Below, piece after piece: positions 4,068 to 10,666 of a stretch of DNA of 10,907 nt. The position numbers and the translations under genes are program-made. This stretch comes from Sulfurimonas sp. (lineage in GTDB: Bacteria; Campylobacterota; Campylobacteria; Campylobacterales; Sulfurimonadaceae): positions 1-10,907 of the forward strand of contig JALSMC010000229.1 in the NCBI GenBank assembly GCA_026987995.1. Reading direction: 5' to 3'. Positions within the stretch are counted from its first letter, which is position 1, and every line of letters begins with the position of its first letter. Below the pieces are notes generated by a model that was not told the DNA's origin, did no database searches, and saw only the letters and a program-made list of their open reading frames with translations.

Positions 4068-5837
4068 GTGCCTAAATTTTTTTTACTCTTACTATTTTTT
4101 TTCATTGTTCCTCTGTTTGCAGAGAAGAGTCCTTCTGATGTTTATAGTCAATCTGTTGTACTTGAAAGAATTGTCATTACTCTACGTAAAGAGAATGGTA
4201 TTAATGAAAAACTTCCCTTTGTTGCACTACAAAAAGCAAAACGTCCACGACATGTTTTGCAAAAAACCCTTGAGGTACTCACTAAAGTAAATAAATATCG
4301 TGAACTCAAAGGTTATGGTAGCATTACTCTACCGCCTGTACCTTCACGTGATATCACTCCTGAAGATGTTTACTATAATGTACTGCGTTTAAAAAAAGAG
4401 GTAGCATTTCTTTTAAAAGAGCAATCACAAGTTAAAAAAAACCTTTTTACACTCAAAAAATATACAAACAAAACACCAAGTGATGTTTATAAAGTACTAT
4501 GGGGTATCTCTCTTGGTTTTGATGCCCTCATAGGGCAGGGTTTTACACCTACTGATGTTTATGCCTTAAGTGAACAGATACTTAAAAGAGTAAAGTTTTT
4601 ACGTAAGTTACAATGCATCAATAGCTCCGTAGTAGTCCCAGAAAAAAAAGAGAACCTTCATCCAAACCATGCACTCTACACATCATTAGAACTACTAAAA
4701 AAAATTCATACTATAGAGAAAAAACTTTGGATGCCACCTGTTCCTATTGTTGCAGCAAAAGAGAAAGTAATTAGTCCTACGGAGGTGTATGATTCCTTGC
4801 AAACAGTCAATGCAGAGCTTAACAGAATCTCATGGCGTTTAGGAGTAGAGCGACATTTTGAAAATATAGAGCCAGATGAAGAGAAGACACCAAGTGATGT
4901 TGTTCAAAACCTCGAGTTTGCAATTGCCCTGCTTCCCTCTTTTGACTTTAATGAGGGGGTAAATCAGTATCCTATTGACTCACTAAAAAAGAGTCCAAAT
5001 GATGTTTTTGCTCTTTCAGAGTATATTTTAGAGAAAATCAATGCTATCAAAGCAGATAAAGGGATACGAAAAACACCCAAAGAAACACAGTATATCTATG
5101 GATTGAAACCTATTCATGTTTATGTGAAAGGGATAGAAGCACTTGAAAAAGTGCAAAAACTTAAAATTTTAGAGGGTTCACATATCTCTGAATCTCCTGA
5201 ATCGCCAGATAGAAAAATTTCTCCTAGTGAAGTGTATGAGTTGATTTTACGCTTAGACGATGAGTTGAGTTTGCTCTATCCAAACAGTGCAAAACAAGCA
5301 TATAGAGAAGTTCTCGATAAAAAAGAGTATAGTGATAAAACACCTTCGGATGCTTACAATAATCTCTGGAAAATCACCTATCAACTAGATACGATACTCA
5401 ATCAAGAGTACACACCAAATGAGACCTATGTATTGGCACTCAAGATCAATAAAGATGTGCAAAATATCGTAAAATATTTTTTAAATAAAAAGGTAGTAGT
5501 AAAGAAAAAAGAAGTTCTTTCTAAGCGTCCCCATGATGTGTTTAATCAATCAAAAAAAGTGCTAGAAAAACTAGAACAGATAAAAAAGCGAGGAAATATT
5601 GAGTCAGTAAGAGTTGCACTGCCTAAAGATAAACATATCACACCTACTTCTGTATATAATGCTCTTCGCATTATTAGTGCAACAATATCAGAGATTAATG
5701 TTGCATTTGGTATTGGGCATATTACTATTGCAAATGTTGATACAAAAGGGAAAACCCCCTCTGATGTATATGAGATAGTCGAGCAAACGAATGAGCTTTT
5801 AGAGTATCTTTTTAAAGATAGTAGTTATGAAAATTAG
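4068..5837 (+). CDS. Secreted protein made of [ST]P-x-[DE]-V-Y helical repeats
   Basis: I do not recognise a named family. The 589-residue product starts with a Sec-type signal peptide (one Lys, a hydrophobic stretch at about 4-17, likely cleavage after LFA at residue 18), so the mature protein begins almost at once with the first repeat and should be periplasmic or secreted; no lipobox Cys is present. Sixteen motif positions can be read, at 20, 58, 96, 135, 159, 197, 235, 273, 308, 346, 384, 424, 448, 486, 524 and 562. Each is a variant of KTPSDVY followed by an amphipathic helix of about 20 residues. S/T-P-x-D/E is a classic helix N-cap. Spacing is usually exactly 38, and the units cycle in fours with KTPSD-type motifs at 135, 273, 424 and 562. 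The start is GTG, chosen for its ribosome-binding site and intact signal peptide. It overlaps the downstream kinase gene by 11 nt, suggesting a sensory partner of that kinase. Confidence 0.85.
   Translation: MPKFFLLLLFFFIVPLFAEKSPSDVYSQSVVLERIVITLRKENGINEKLPFVALQKAKRPRHVLQKTLEVLTKVNKYRELKGYGSITLPPVPSRDITPEDVYYNVLRLKKEVAFLLKEQSQVKKNLFTLKKYTNKTPSDVYKVLWGISLGFDALIGQGFTPTDVYALSEQILKRVKFLRKLQCINSSVVVPEKKENLHPNHALYTSLELLKKIHTIEKKLWMPPVPIVAAKEKVISPTEVYDSLQTVNAELNRISWRLGVERHFENIEPDEEKTPSDVVQNLEFAIALLPSFDFNEGVNQYPIDSLKKSPNDVFALSEYILEKINAIKADKGIRKTPKETQYIYGLKPIHVYVKGIEALEKVQKLKILEGSHISESPESPDRKISPSEVYELILRLDDELSLLYPNSAKQAYREVLDKKEYSDKTPSDAYNNLWKITYQLDTILNQEYTPNETYVLALKINKDVQNIVKYFLNKKVVVKKKEVLSKRPHDVFNQSKKVLEKLEQIKKRGNIESVRVALPKDKHITPTSVYNALRIISATISEINVAFGIGHITIANVDTKGKTPSDVYEIVEQTNELLEYLFKDSSYEN
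4125..5771 (+). repeat. Protein-level repeat array: about 38-residue units in a four-unit super-repeat
   Basis: Super-repeats begin at codons for residues 135 (base 4470), 273 (4884) and 424 (5337); a fourth opens at 562 (5751), and a partial one lies at the N-terminus (motifs at 20, 58, 96). Distances are 138, 151 and 138 residues. Within a super-repeat the second motif follows after 24 (twice) or 35 residues, then steps of 38. The KTPSD codons differ between copies (AGT, AGT, TCG, TCT for Ser), so the DNA is diverged while the motif is kept: an old, selected repeat rather than a recent duplication. Confidence 0.85.
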
Positions 5838-7776
5838 TCTCTCTACAAAAGTTGCATTAGGGACATTTTTTGTTGCAGGTATTGGTGTTCTTATGGTTGC
5901 ATTTTTATCTTATGCACAAATAAGTAGTTATTTTAAAGAGAATATCTTAAATACATTAGCATTTGAGCTCAAAGATAATATTGAAATTATGAAAAAAAAT
6001 ATTACTGATATCAAAAAAGATGCTAAATTATTGAAGTTTAATAAAAATATAGCACCCATAAAACGTTCTCTTGAGAATAACTATCATTATGATGCAAAGA
6101 GTAATAAAACACTCAAAGGACTTAAAGAGGAGCTAGGGGATACATTTAAATCTGTTCTTGAACATAGTGAGGCATATTTTAATATTCGACTCATAGCCAG
6201 AGATGGTGAAGAGTTAGTGGTAGCATTGCGGGATGGAGAGGGCACTGTTTTTGTTCAGAAGAAAAAGCTCTTACAAAATAAAGCAAAACGTCCCTACTTT
6301 CAAGATGCAATTAGTCTAAAAGATGGAGATTTCTATGTCTCAAAAATCAATCTTAACAGAGAATATGGCAAGATAGTCTATCCTCATATACCAACAATTC
6401 GTGTGGCCACTCCTATTTACATAGACAAAGAACTTTTTGGTATCATAATTATCAATGCAAATATAAACAAACTATTTACACCTTTAGTAAACAATACACT
6501 CTCTGAACAGAGAATTTATTTGGCAAATGAGGATGGATACTATCTTTTTCATGAAAATATAGAGAAAACTTTTGGTTTTGACTTGGGAACAGAAGATAAG
6601 CTAGCAACTGATTTTAACCTACAGATAAAAAAATATTTTGGTGGACATATTGCATTTGTTTTTGATACTTTTGAGTTAAACAGCAGAGAGAGACTCTACG
6701 TAGCACTCACTACAACAGACAAATTTTTGAAAGAGCAATCCTTTCAGTATAAACAAAAATTAGGAATTTATGTATTAGGGGTTTCACTCTTTATAGCTGT
6801 TATGACACTACTCCTTGTGCAGTATTTGATAGTGCCGATTAGACGATTAACAAAGAGCGCTAGAAGTATTGCCGATGGAAAAGATAATGATACAGATCTT
6901 TTAAATATTGATTCAAATGATGAGCTAGGAGAACTCTCCTTTTCTCTGCAGAAGATGTTTGATACACTTCAAGAATCTAAGAGAAGTGTAGAGAAACAGG
7001 TAGAGGAGCGAACACGAGAGCTTAACGAACTCAATGAAAATCTTGAAAAGATGGTTACAAAAAAAACTGATGAAAATATAAGGCAACTCAAAGCTATGGA
7101 AGAACAAGCAAAGATGGCTTCTATGGGGGAAATGATTGGAGCAATTGCACATCAATGGCGCCAGCCTCTTAATGAGATATCTGTGAGTATTCAAAACCTT
7201 CGTTATGATTATGAGGATGGTCTTGTGGATGAGGCATTTATAGAGAAGTTTATTGCTAAAAATAAAAAAGTGATAGAGTTCATGTCCCATACTATCGATG
7301 ATTTTAGGAATTTTTATAGAGTAGATAAAACAAAAAAGCCTTTTGATGTTAAAGAGGCGGTAGAAGCTACCATCTCTCTGCAATTAGCACAGCTGAAGAA
7401 CAATGATATTGACATTCTTGTAGAGGGTAAGAGTTTTATTGTAAATGGTTTAAAAAATGAGTTTCAACAGGTAGTGCTTAACATTATAAATAATGCAAAA
7501 GATGCACTCCTTGAAAATGGTGTTGCAGATGCCAAAATATGGATAATTCTTAAAGATAATAGTGTTAGAATAGAAGATAATGCAGGAGGTGTGCCTCTTG
7601 AGGTAATTGATAGGCTTTTTGAGCCATACTTTACAACAAAAGAACAGGGAAAAGGAACTGGGATGGGACTTTACATGTCGAAGATGATTATAGAAGAGAA
7701 TATGAAGGGGAGAATTAGTGTGCACAACAGCGATGCAGGTGCTATATTTAGGATAGAATTTTATGAAAAAAAATAG
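5827..7776 (+). CDS. Membrane sensor histidine kinase with Cache-like periplasmic domain
   Basis: This 649-residue kinase has an N-terminal membrane segment (about 9-30), a periplasmic region (about 31-312), a second membrane segment (about 314-335), HAMP (about 336-388), a coiled coil (about 383-430) and a catalytic core. The periplasmic part has Cache-like features: RPYFQDA (155-161), VSKINLN (171-177), IRVATPIYI (191-199), and a second subdomain with NEDGYYLFHE (234-243); this suggests a double-Cache small-ligand sensor. The phosphoacceptor is H442 in AHQWRQPL (441-448). The ATPase domain shows the N box NIINNAKDAL (552-561), G1 DNAGG (584-588), F box FEPYFTTK (598-605) and G2 GKGTGMGL (608-615). 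All key residues are present, so it should be active. The start overlaps the repeat-protein gene by 11 nt and the end overlaps the regulator by 14 nt, indicating translational coupling. The ligand is unknown; the upstream secreted protein may present it. Confidence 0.93.
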   Translation: MKISLSTKVALGTFFVAGIGVLMVAFLSYAQISSYFKENILNTLAFELKDNIEIMKKNITDIKKDAKLLKFNKNIAPIKRSLENNYHYDAKSNKTLKGLKEELGDTFKSVLEHSEAYFNIRLIARDGEELVVALRDGEGTVFVQKKKLLQNKAKRPYFQDAISLKDGDFYVSKINLNREYGKIVYPHIPTIRVATPIYIDKELFGIIIINANINKLFTPLVNNTLSEQRIYLANEDGYYLFHENIEKTFGFDLGTEDKLATDFNLQIKKYFGGHIAFVFDTFELNSRERLYVALTTTDKFLKEQSFQYKQKLGIYVLGVSLFIAVMTLLLVQYLIVPIRRLTKSARSIADGKDNDTDLLNIDSNDELGELSFSLQKMFDTLQESKRSVEKQVEERTRELNELNENLEKMVTKKTDENIRQLKAMEEQAKMASMGEMIGAIAHQWRQPLNEISVSIQNLRYDYEDGLVDEAFIEKFIAKNKKVIEFMSHTIDDFRNFYRVDKTKKPFDVKEAVEATISLQLAQLKNNDIDILVEGKSFIVNGLKNEFQQVVLNIINNAKDALLENGVADAKIWIILKDNSVRIEDNAGGVPLEVIDRLFEPYFTTKEQGKGTGMGLYMSKMIIEENMKGRISVHNSDAGAIFRIEFYEKK

Positions 7777-9241
7777 TATATCGATTCTGTATGTCGAGGA
7801 TGAAAATAGTGTCAGGGAGATGCTTGGACATTTTATAGGACGTTTTTGTGAGTCTATTTATACTGCAGCAGATGGTGCGGAGGGACTTGCACTCTATGAG
7901 CAGCATAGAGTAGATATTGTTATCTCTGATATTAAGATGCCAAAGCTCAATGGTATAGAGATGGTTGAGAAGATTAAAGCGATGAATCCTGAACAGATTG
8001 TTATCTTCACAACAGCACATATAGATAGTGACTACCTCTTTCGTGCGATAGAGTTACAAGTTGGTGCTTATGTGCCAAAGCCTGTAGATCTTGATATGCT
8101 CAAAGACAATATCGATAAAGCAATTAGAGAGTTAGAGTCCCGCACGGCACTAAAACGTCTTCAAGAGAGTGAAGAGAAGTTTAGAAGAGTAGCTAATATG
8201 GCACATATGGGGATTATGATCTATAAAGAGTATTTTCTTTATGTGAATGATGCCTTATGTGAGATGACAGGCTACAGTAGAGAGGAATTACTTGCTATGC
8301 ATCCTTGGGAAATTGCACCAAAAGAGCAGCAGAAATATTTTAAAGATATAGCAATGCGAAGACTTAAAGGAGAGCATTTCCAAGCAAGGTACAATGACCT
8401 TACAATACCGACAAAGAACGGCGAACTAAAAACAATACGTGTAAATGCTGATACTATGAAGTATGAAGATGGTTATGCAGGTTTTAGTACTATGGTTGAT
8501 GTGACAGATATAGTCCATACAAGCAAAAGGTTAAAACAATTAGCACAGGCGATGGAGCAGATGGATGAGATGGTTCGCATTAGTGACACAAATGGTACTA
8601 TCTCTTTTGTAAATGAGGCACTTACAAAGCATACAGGGTATAAAAAGAGTGAACTCATTGGAGTGAATAATAATATTTTCCAATCTGGTAAGCACTCCAA
8701 ACAGTTTTATGCAAATTTTTGGGAAAAAATACTCTCAAAAAATCCCCATCAGATAACATTTGTAAATAAAAAGAAAAATGGTGAACTCTATTATGAAGAA
8801 TTAACCGTAACACCTATACTTGATGAAGAGGGTGAGATAGAGTATTTTGTATCTACAGGTAAGGATATTACACAGAGACTTGAACTTGAAAAAAAACTCC
8901 AAGAGTTAGCAACAGTAGATACACTGACAGGTGTGTGGAATCGTTATAAGACAAACGAGTATATTGATGATGCATTGATAAAGAATAGACGCCATAAACG
9001 CAAACTAGGACTGATAATGTTTGATATCGATCACTTTAAACATGTAAATGACACATATGGGCACGATGTCGGAGACATTGTTTTAAAGGAGTTTGCTGCA
9101 CTTATTAAGAAGTCGATACGAGAAAGTGATAAGTTTGGTCGATGGGGTGGTGAAGAGTTTATGCTGTTGAGTGAAGAAACAAAAGAAGAGAATATTGTAC
9201 TCTTTTCTGAAAAGCTCTGTAGGATAGTAGAGGCACCCTAA
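7763..9241 (+). pseudogene. REC-PAS-PAS-GGDEF response regulator, C-terminally truncated at an insertion sequence
   Basis: The 492-residue frame encodes a receiver domain (about 6-122) with the acidic pocket E12/D13, phosphoacceptor D56 in SDIKMP, T83/T84 and K106 in PKP. Two PAS domains follow (about 135-250 and 255-372), the second ending in a clear PAC segment, STGKDITQRLELEKKL. A GGDEF domain opens with VDTLTGVWNR (385-394) and contains FDIDHFKHVND, an RxxD inhibitory site (R453, D456) and an intact GGEEF (462-466). It should receive phosphate from the upstream kinase and make cyclic di-GMP. However, the frame stops 26 residues after GGEEF, before the expected SIGV strand and the RADxALYxAKxxGRN helix, so about 45-55 residues are missing. 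The stop codon lies in CCCTAA, at the probable left end of an IS1380-type element. Diguanylate cyclase activity is probably lost; REC and PAS parts may still be made. Confidence 0.88.
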
Positions 9242-9361: not shown

Positions 9362-10666
9362 ATGCCACAAACAATATTAAAATTTAGACTAGAATCCACA
9401 AACGAAAAATTAACACCAAGAACAGGTATCGCAATACTAGGTGAACACCTCAAAGGTATGAACTTAGAGAGAATTTGTAATTCCAATATGCCTCAAGCTA
9501 AAAGAGCAAATGGATATAGTGCATTTGAATTTATCTATCCTCTAATATTAATGCTTCATAGTGGTGGTCGTGTACTTGATGATATCAAGGAGATAAGAGA
9601 AGATACTGCACTTTCAACACTTCTAAAAATGGACAATATCCCAACTGCATCTGCTATCGGGAAATATCTTCATAAGCATAAACTCAACGGCAGAGATGCC
9701 ATCAGAAAAATAGATAAAGAGTTTCTCAAAAGATATCTTAAAAGCATTTCAAATGAAGAATTGATTTTAGATATTGATGCAACATTTATCGAAGCACATA
9801 AAAACACAGCTAAATGGTCTTATAAAGATGCACCTGGTTATATGCCTATGGTAGGACACATTAACGGAGGCTATGTAATTGATGTAGATTTCAGAGAGGG
9901 TAGCGAAGCACCTGCAAAAGAAAACTTAGAGTTTATAAAACAGTGCCAACAACAACTTCCATTAGGTATAAAATTTGATAGATTTAGAGCAGACAGTGCA
10001 TCATATCAAGCAAGTATCTTTAACCACTGTGATACAGAGAATATTCTATATACTGTTACAGCTAAAAAATCTAAAACAATGTTTGATTCAATCTATGAGA
10101 TAGAAGATTCTAAATGGAAACAATTCACTCAGAGAGAAAAAGTATTTGAGTTTATACATTCAATGCAAGATACAGATAATGCATTCAGAGTAATTGTAAT
10201 TAAAGAAGATATAACTCCTACTCTGCCGACATTAGAAGAGTATATATCAGATGAAGTGATGGCTCAACATGAAGATGAAATTTATTACTGCATAGCTACA
10301 AACGATAATAATTCAACCCAAGAGGAGATAATTAAACTACATCGCCAAAGAGGTGAAACAAGCGAAAACAAAATCAAAGAGTTGAAAAATGGTTTTAATA
10401 TGAGTTATCTTCCAACATCAAACTTTGAAGCAAATGCATTCTACTTTGCTATAGGTACTTTAGCTTACAATCTATTTTTATTGTTCAAACAGATTTTAGA
10501 TAAAAGCTTTCAAAAATATACAGTTAGAACTATCCGATATAAACTTTATAACATCGCTGGTAAGGTTGTTAGCCATGCCAGAGAGCTAACTTTAAAAGTG
10601 AATGAACAGTTTAGAGAGTTACTGCAAAATATAAGATATAGAGCTTATTCAGAGTGTTTACAATGA
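9362..10666 (+). CDS. IS1380-family DDE transposase
   Basis: The 434-residue protein catalyses cut-and-paste movement of the surrounding element. Catalytic motifs of the IS1380/IS4-like DDE fold are visible: LDIDATFIEAH (136-146; first Asp D137 or D139), GYMPMVGH followed by a Gly-rich strand and FREGSEAPAKEN (159-189), FRADSASY (208-215; second Asp D211), and HRQRGETSENKIKELKNGF (327-345), with E335 as likely third acid and K342 six residues later. The C-terminal part is basic and helical. Length fits the usual 430-450 residues and the frame is intact, so the enzyme may be active. GGAAG (9354-9358) precedes the ATG at short spacing. It lies in the same direction as the interrupted regulator gene. 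It could be placed in a neighbouring IS4-superfamily group, but the R-G-x-x-x-E-N-x-I-K-E-x-K segment favours IS1380. Confidence 0.9.
   Translation: MPQTILKFRLESTNEKLTPRTGIAILGEHLKGMNLERICNSNMPQAKRANGYSAFEFIYPLILMLHSGGRVLDDIKEIREDTALSTLLKMDNIPTASAIGKYLHKHKLNGRDAIRKIDKEFLKRYLKSISNEELILDIDATFIEAHKNTAKWSYKDAPGYMPMVGHINGGYVIDVDFREGSEAPAKENLEFIKQCQQQLPLGIKFDRFRADSASYQASIFNHCDTENILYTVTAKKSKTMFDSIYEIEDSKWKQFTQREKVFEFIHSMQDTDNAFRVIVIKEDITPTLPTLEEYISDEVMAQHEDEIYYCIATNDNNSTQEEIIKLHRQRGETSENKIKELKNGFNMSYLPTSNFEANAFYFAIGTLAYNLFLLFKQILDKSFQKYTVRTIRYKLYNIAGKVVSHARELTLKVNEQFRELLQNIRYRAYSECLQ

Follow-up and report, generated by a model that had tools for sequence, protein, structure and literature searches.

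A helix-repeat protein of Sulfurimonas encoded beside a Cache-type receptor is a probable periplasmic co-receptor

The 589-residue helix-repeat protein encoded in the window (the entire 10,907-nucleotide stretch of Sulfurimonas sp. DNA analyzed here) is probably a periplasmic co-receptor, that is, an accessory sensor protein that docks on a sensor and sets its output. Because in related bacteria a receptor gene lies nearly always directly downstream of the repeat gene, the protein is probably the sensor's helper outside the inner membrane. By sequence prediction, the protein would be exported by Sec, and AlphaFold2 models it with high confidence as folding into eight-helix modules, one in the short form and two in the long form. 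It would then dock on the sensor domain of the receptor. The contact between repeat protein and sensor could be altered by a small ligand at a conserved polar cluster or by an envelope change, upon which the receptor output would shift along a path from kinase to response regulator to c-di-GMP, the domain content of these proteins being known and their activities presumed. The protein is best read as representing a new, unnamed family that performs a known kind of job. The features of the window are as follows.

4068..5837, + strand: helix-repeat protein, 589 aa, GTG start
4068..4121, + strand: likely Sec signal peptide, residues 1-18, sequence MPKFFLLLLFFFIVPLFA|EK
4128..4544, + strand: Block 1, units D1 A1 B1 C1, residues 21-159 (AlphaFold2 helices, profile comparison)
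4545..4991, + strand: Block 2, units D2 A2 B2 C2, residues 160-308, 149 residues (motif positions, AlphaFold2 helices, profile comparison)
4992..5411, + strand: Block 3, units D3 A3 B3 C3, residues 309-448 (AlphaFold2 helices, profile comparison)
5412..5834, + strand: Block 4, units D4 A4 B4 C4, residues 449-589 (AlphaFold2 helices, profile comparison)
5827..7776, + strand: partner receptor, a histidine kinase (PF21623, HAMP and HATPase_c above cut-off)
7763..9241, + strand: response regulator with two PAS domains and a shortened GGDEF domain (Pfam; matches residues 1-489 of a 539-aa homologue)
9362..10666, + strand: IS1380-family transposase, outside the system (NF033539, E 2e-91)

Repeat architecture and predicted structure

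Sixteen repeat units were recovered, with starts at residues 21, 59, 97, 136, 160, 198, 236 and 274 in the first half of the protein and at residues 309, 347, 385, 425, 449, 487, 525 and 563 in the second; a 17th loose match at residue 49 was off register and was discarded. The strict motif [ST]P.[DE][VA]Y matches 8 times, compared with a mean of 0.003 and a maximum of 1 in 5000 residue shuffles, and the loose motif 17 times, compared with a mean of 2.6 and a maximum of 10 in as many shuffles. The regular [ST]P-x-[DE]-V-Y repeat described in the earlier note is thus recovered well beyond the shuffled background. Successive units are spaced by 38, 38, 39, 24, 38, 38, 38, 35, 38, 38, 40, 24, 38, 38 and 38 residues and follow the register D-A-B-C four times. 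Ten of the 15 spacings are exactly 38, so that the number of such spacings claimed earlier (at least eight) holds, although the unbroken run that had been claimed for them never exceeds three. The four-unit super-repeat stands, with class C units at 136, 274, 425 and 563 spaced by 138, 151 and 138 residues (1-based positions; the earlier note counted from 0). Both the unit and the four-cycle are far above chance.

The four blocks are not evenly joined. The C-to-D step spans 24 residues between blocks 1 and 2 and between blocks 3 and 4, compared with 35 between blocks 2 and 3. Comparison of unit profiles, derived from an alignment of 88 homologues, gave a mean similarity of +11.9 for unit pairs of the same class, -3.0 for pairs of different class and -30.5 (sd 12.1) for random offsets; the highest-scoring pairs were C1-C3 (42.4), B1-B3 (42.0), B1-C4 (32.0, of different class) and A1-A3 (28.1). 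Block 4 is the least conserved of the four. An hhalign comparison of the two halves of the long form gives an alignment of 270 columns at 30% identity (E 9e-46), and the entire short form, which at ~300 aa is a single module, can be aligned to either half (E 1.8e-40 and 2.1e-34). The simplest account of the long form is a duplicated eight-helix, two-block module. The repeat is therefore layered, from the helix to the four-helix block, to the eight-helix module and to the duplicate of that module.

The AlphaFold2 model of the repeat protein (pLDDT 90.1, pTM 0.88) starts all 16 repeat helices at motif position 2, one residue past the motif start, which identifies the motif as a helix N-cap, in agreement with the earlier reading. 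Linkers of at least 15 residues separate most helices in the model, so several helix packings are possible, of which the elongated solenoid proposed in the earlier note would be one. The VIA-align matches, to the aspartase/fumarase family and to Roquin, were read as generic helix packing, and the missing structural match is no proof of a new fold. Since the motif is a generic helix start, the repeat might in principle have arisen by chance or from composition, with no protein function attached; this explanation is effectively excluded by hundreds of homologues of steady length, by the high-confidence folds and by the invariant polar residues described below.

The N-terminus is hydrophobic and ends in LFA|EK near residue 18, which makes the Sec/SPI site anticipated there likely, and the hydropathy rule detects no further membrane segment in the protein. 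By the same rule alone, an N-terminal hydrophobic stretch is present in 84 of the 88 long homologues, in all 86 short ones and in 27 of the 29 distant ones. Judged from hydropathy, the repeat protein is likely exported by Sec.

Relatives and distribution of the family

The window protein has no Pfam or NCBIfam match above cut-off, in keeping with the earlier statement that no known family fits it, and the sole sub-threshold Pfam match is HTH_63. A PDB sequence search returned nothing better than E 0.3, and the only match listed in PDB profile searches was one designed protein (E 0.045). Two weak PHROGs matches of the window protein, both of unknown function (E 6e-4 and 5e-3), were disregarded. 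Profiles of named helical solenoid repeats (TPR, HEAT, Sel1 and the like) matched neither the window protein nor the homologues scanned. No solute-binding protein (SBP) profile of Pfam matched the window protein, and none is among the two families matched by 29 distant members. The Oomycete WY repeat (PF22748) resembles some homologues in a short match at the TP-x-D-V-[YF] helix start; it has no match in the window protein. Two homologues, P0108 and P0111, score 26.6 and 25.8 bits, below the cut-off of 27, in matches of 16 residues, and are the 2 among 120 homologues listed to which the protein database assigns PF22748.2. Of the 29 distant members, 4 match at E<=0.01. The WY assignment was rejected, the resemblance being read as a shared helix-start motif. 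In the parts of open-licence PMC papers returned by full-text searches, a description of the family was not found.

Recurrent homologues, which the earlier note had expected, were found in number by protein searches. At E<=0.001 the long query retrieved at least 243 relatives, the short query 180 and the distant query 104, sets that may overlap. Full-length relatives from the genus share 59-61% identity with the window protein. Source labels among the matches listed include Sulfurimonas, Hydrogenimonas, Persephonella and Arcobacteraceae, and those of the distant query, again among the matches listed, include Thiotrichales, Methylophagaceae, Methylococcaceae, Aliiglaciecola and Planctomycetes. 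Carriage of the repeat gene is patchy. With the window's own genome counted each time, the gene is present in 16 of 99 relatives' genomes, 11 of 397 genomes drawn evenly from the phylum (a further match, in G112, proved to be an S24 peptidase and was not counted, leaving 11 carriers rather than 12), 22 of 398 genomes of the order and 28 of 135 genomes of the genus, the last including one remnant and one gene at a contig end. Scans of genome contigs by peptide pattern found no relative, and a plasmid tblastn search with one distant member as query gave no match.

Receptor pairing and co-divergence

The earlier reading was sound with respect to export, the N-cap, novelty and homologues; it overlooked the eight-helix module, the duplication of that module and the receptor gene downstream, and this receptor gene is the pointer to function. 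In the window, the repeat gene overlaps the histidine kinase gene by 11 nt. The kinase carries a PF21623 sensor at residues 96-255 (88.9 bits, E 3.8e-25, cut-off 27), flanked by predicted membrane segments that start at residues 5 and 310, and its HisKA match is below cut-off (19.4 of 26.9 bits). PF21623 (PDB 2p7j, 3lid), which is of Cache type, includes the outside domain of this receptor. The GGDEF regulator that follows ends at 492 aa (539 in the homologue), immediately before the IS1380 transposase; its c-di-GMP output may, judging from the gene sequence, have been lost in the host genome. Elsewhere in the window, positions 527-997 encode a 156-aa protein with a sub-threshold match to CZB, the chemoreceptor zinc-binding domain (E 0.011).

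Forty-nine repeat loci were compared, comprising an initial 37 (20 long, 14 short and 3 distant) and then 12 from the genus. A receptor gene lies directly downstream on the same strand in 45 of them, with 42 of the 45 receptors carrying a PF21623-type sensor and three distant ones another sensor (two in L037, one in L039). PF21623 was called by Pfam at part of the loci, by full-length BLAST to a Pfam-positive receptor for G204, G124, G449, G398, G407, G335 and G424, and by an HMM of paired sensors for the last ten. The four loci without a pair are L030 and L143, which have no adjacent receptor, L159, which holds a 65-aa remnant, and L160, at a contig end. The gaps between repeat and receptor ORFs range from -98 to +73 nt over the 45 pairs and are within 20 nt either way in 36. 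By a hydropathy scan, 43 of the 45 paired receptors have at least two membrane segments; the receptor ORF L037:6187-8187 has a single predicted segment, and the L161 receptor gene is split over two ORFs in two frames with one segment each. Among the 12 genus loci, retrieved after the pairing rule had been noted and incompletely independent as they come from the same genus, 10 fit the rule, one is the remnant and one is at the contig end.

Association at the genome level points the same way. PF21623 is present in 16 of 16 genomes with the repeat gene, compared with 25 of 83 without it (99 genomes, Fisher p 9e-8). Of the PF21623 genes in relatives, 37 of 54 (36 fetched, two of them at a contig start and one with its ORF uncalled, plus one in L039) have no repeat gene directly upstream, which indicates that the domain works mostly without the repeat protein. 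The receptor outputs vary. As in the window, they may consist of a histidine kinase and a GGDEF regulator, or of a hybrid kinase, a CheB-CheR protein and a GGDEF regulator (L031), a PF21623-SpoIIE phosphatase (L065), a chemoreceptor (L039), or PAS and GGDEF/EAL proteins whose outside domains look helical (L037). Since outputs swap between loci, the constant part is the outside of the receptor.

Several loci have further distinctive neighbors. A CheB-CheR fusion follows the hybrid kinase at L031:13268-14935 (Pfam) and in L033, L035 and L038 (BLAST cluster-mates), and L061-L064 contain ORFs sized like CheB-CheR genes; the gene order may point to a histidine kinase that adapts by methylation. At L065:4880-9083, a short repeat protein and a DUF6272 protein precede the SpoIIE phosphatase. 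At L037:3856-14266, two repeat genes are clustered with the PAS/GGDEF/EAL proteins, whose outside domains appear by eye to be all-helical and not Cache-like. The receptor-less short repeat gene at L143:475-2690 is convergent with a gene for a double-receiver GGDEF protein. At L034:237-2024, just upstream of the repeat gene, a chemoreceptor shows weak cytochrome c7-like similarity (22.3 bits, below the cut-off of 24.8). The 65-aa remnant at L159:4617-4814 has no adjoining receptor, as if both had been lost jointly.

A tree of 58 receptor sensor domains was built, which includes 25 of the 45 paired receptors and one unpaired receptor from L039, and omits 4 of the 36 unpaired loci: L078 and L089 (copies), L087 (ORF not found) and L101 (contig edge). 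The paired label changes 5 times on this tree, compared with a shuffled mean of 19.1, and none of 500 shuffles was as low. Receptors of long and short forms fall into separate subclades, each with support of 100/99; the fork joining the subclades is weak (93/48). Four unpaired receptors lie within the paired clade, one at a contig start and the others from G070, G023 and G057. G070 has an unpaired long repeat gene on a different contig from its receptor of the same clade, and in G023 (94% complete) and G057 (67%) the repeat gene was not found in the genome.

The divergence of the repeat protein is tied more tightly to that of the sensor domain than to that of the kinase. For 12 long pairs, from which L026 was omitted because its kinase is of a different type, the distance correlation with the repeat protein was r = 0.918 for the sensor, 0.896 for HAMP and 0.797 for the kinase. 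The partial correlation of repeat and sensor given the kinase was 0.75, and that of repeat and kinase given the sensor -0.04. With L026 included (13 pairs), the values were 0.91 for repeat-sensor, 0.61 for repeat-kinase and 0.55 for sensor-kinase. For the short forms (8 of 12 pairs), they were 0.832 for repeat-sensor, 0.705 for repeat-kinase and 0.796 for repeat-GAF. These distances are raw and non-independent. As they share history, what is telling is the difference among the domains of a single polypeptide. Some of the co-divergence could stem from transfer of the two genes together as a linked cassette.

These data bear on whether the two proteins touch at all. The repeat protein might instead be a separate operon-linked binding protein or scaffold, handling an envelope substrate that the receptor also senses and making no contact with it. 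Adjacency is by itself no proof of contact, the two genes are apart in G070, and some flanking genes recur: L061:2151-6276 has ABC ATPase, sigma-54 and DUF2400 genes upstream of the repeat gene (Pfam, L061 only), and L032, L062 and L152, which were not domain-scanned, have ORFs similar to these in size and order. We regard this alternative as quite improbable, since the repeat protein diverges in step with the sensor domain and not with the kinase, both being parts of one polypeptide, and no enzyme or transporter gene is common to the flanks scanned across lineages (part of the 49 loci).

The polar cluster and comparison with known systems

Nine polar residues of Block 1 (Q65, K66, E69, K73, R78, R107, E111, S148 and D152) do not vary in any of the 88 long forms, which are otherwise 35-64% identical to the window protein. 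In unit coordinates they are A+6 Q, A+7 K, A+10 E, A+14 K, A+19 R, B+10 R, B+14 E, C+12 S and C+16 D. Eight of these positions are 91-100% conserved in 86 short forms, in which A+7 is K in only 57. Block 3 contains a second copy of most of the cluster (K354, E357, K361, R395, D397, T437 and D441), and blocks 2 and 4 retain few of its residues. The distant alignment keeps the A+14 K in 29 of 29 members and differs at the other eight positions, which makes the cluster a feature of the long and short forms. This cluster may be a ligand or partner site, or else a buried structural network.

The cluster also bears on a mode of action like that of CpxP, in which the repeat protein would be a periplasmic inhibitor or envelope-stress gauge that restrains the receptor and is titrated off by misfolded protein or membrane damage, with no small ligand involved. 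The all-helical model, the likely export and the location beside a sensor kinase gene fit this explanation, as does the precedent of CpxP itself, an accessory protein that keeps the kinase CpxA inactive (PMC4755656). The gene-pair logic would be the same as in the co-receptor reading and the sign opposite. A CpxP-like role is nevertheless unlikely, because nine invariant polar residues suit a specific site better, even though a buried network would look alike, and because the window protein has no Pfam or NCBIfam match to the CpxP/LTXXQ family. The co-receptor reading is preferred.

More tentatively, and with somewhat less than even confidence, the tandem N-capped helices in eight-helix modules can be viewed as a receptor-partner family unrelated to SBPs. 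Such a family would lend signal recognition to Cache-like and other receptors irrespective of output type, and each module of the long and short forms would contain one polar signal site. The source labels of its relatives comprise Campylobacterota, several lineages of Gammaproteobacteria and a planctomycete. This wider proposal is weighted lower because the distant group keeps one cluster residue. Many transmembrane receptors have no known signal. If the family does mark a subset of Cache-like receptors as two-part sensors, this would explain why a screen on such a sensor domain alone may fail and would make the repeat protein, as the partner, a route to the receptor's signal. The proposal also suggests what several hundred proteins without a name may do, and the polar cluster, present in two copies, pinpoints the exact residues of interest.

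SBPs that partner receptors, as in BctC-BctE, are exported and soluble and act with the outside domain of several receptor types (PMC9602780). The repeat protein would resemble the SBP partners of sensor kinases, chemoreceptors and GGDEF/EAL receptors as a likely exported soluble protein paired with several receptor types. TorT-TorS is another pair of solute-binding protein and sensor. The SBP fold is two-lobed and is recognized by Pfam profiles, whereas the repeat protein lacks such a match and its predicted modules are all-helical rather than two-lobed. The PF21623 sensor domain belongs to the partner receptor and not to the repeat protein. CpxP, whose fold is helical, would be similar to the repeat protein as a periplasmic regulator of a sensor kinase. 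In contrast to CpxP, the repeat protein has up to 16 repeat helices in duplicated modules, and its partners are mostly Cache-like sensors with several types of output.
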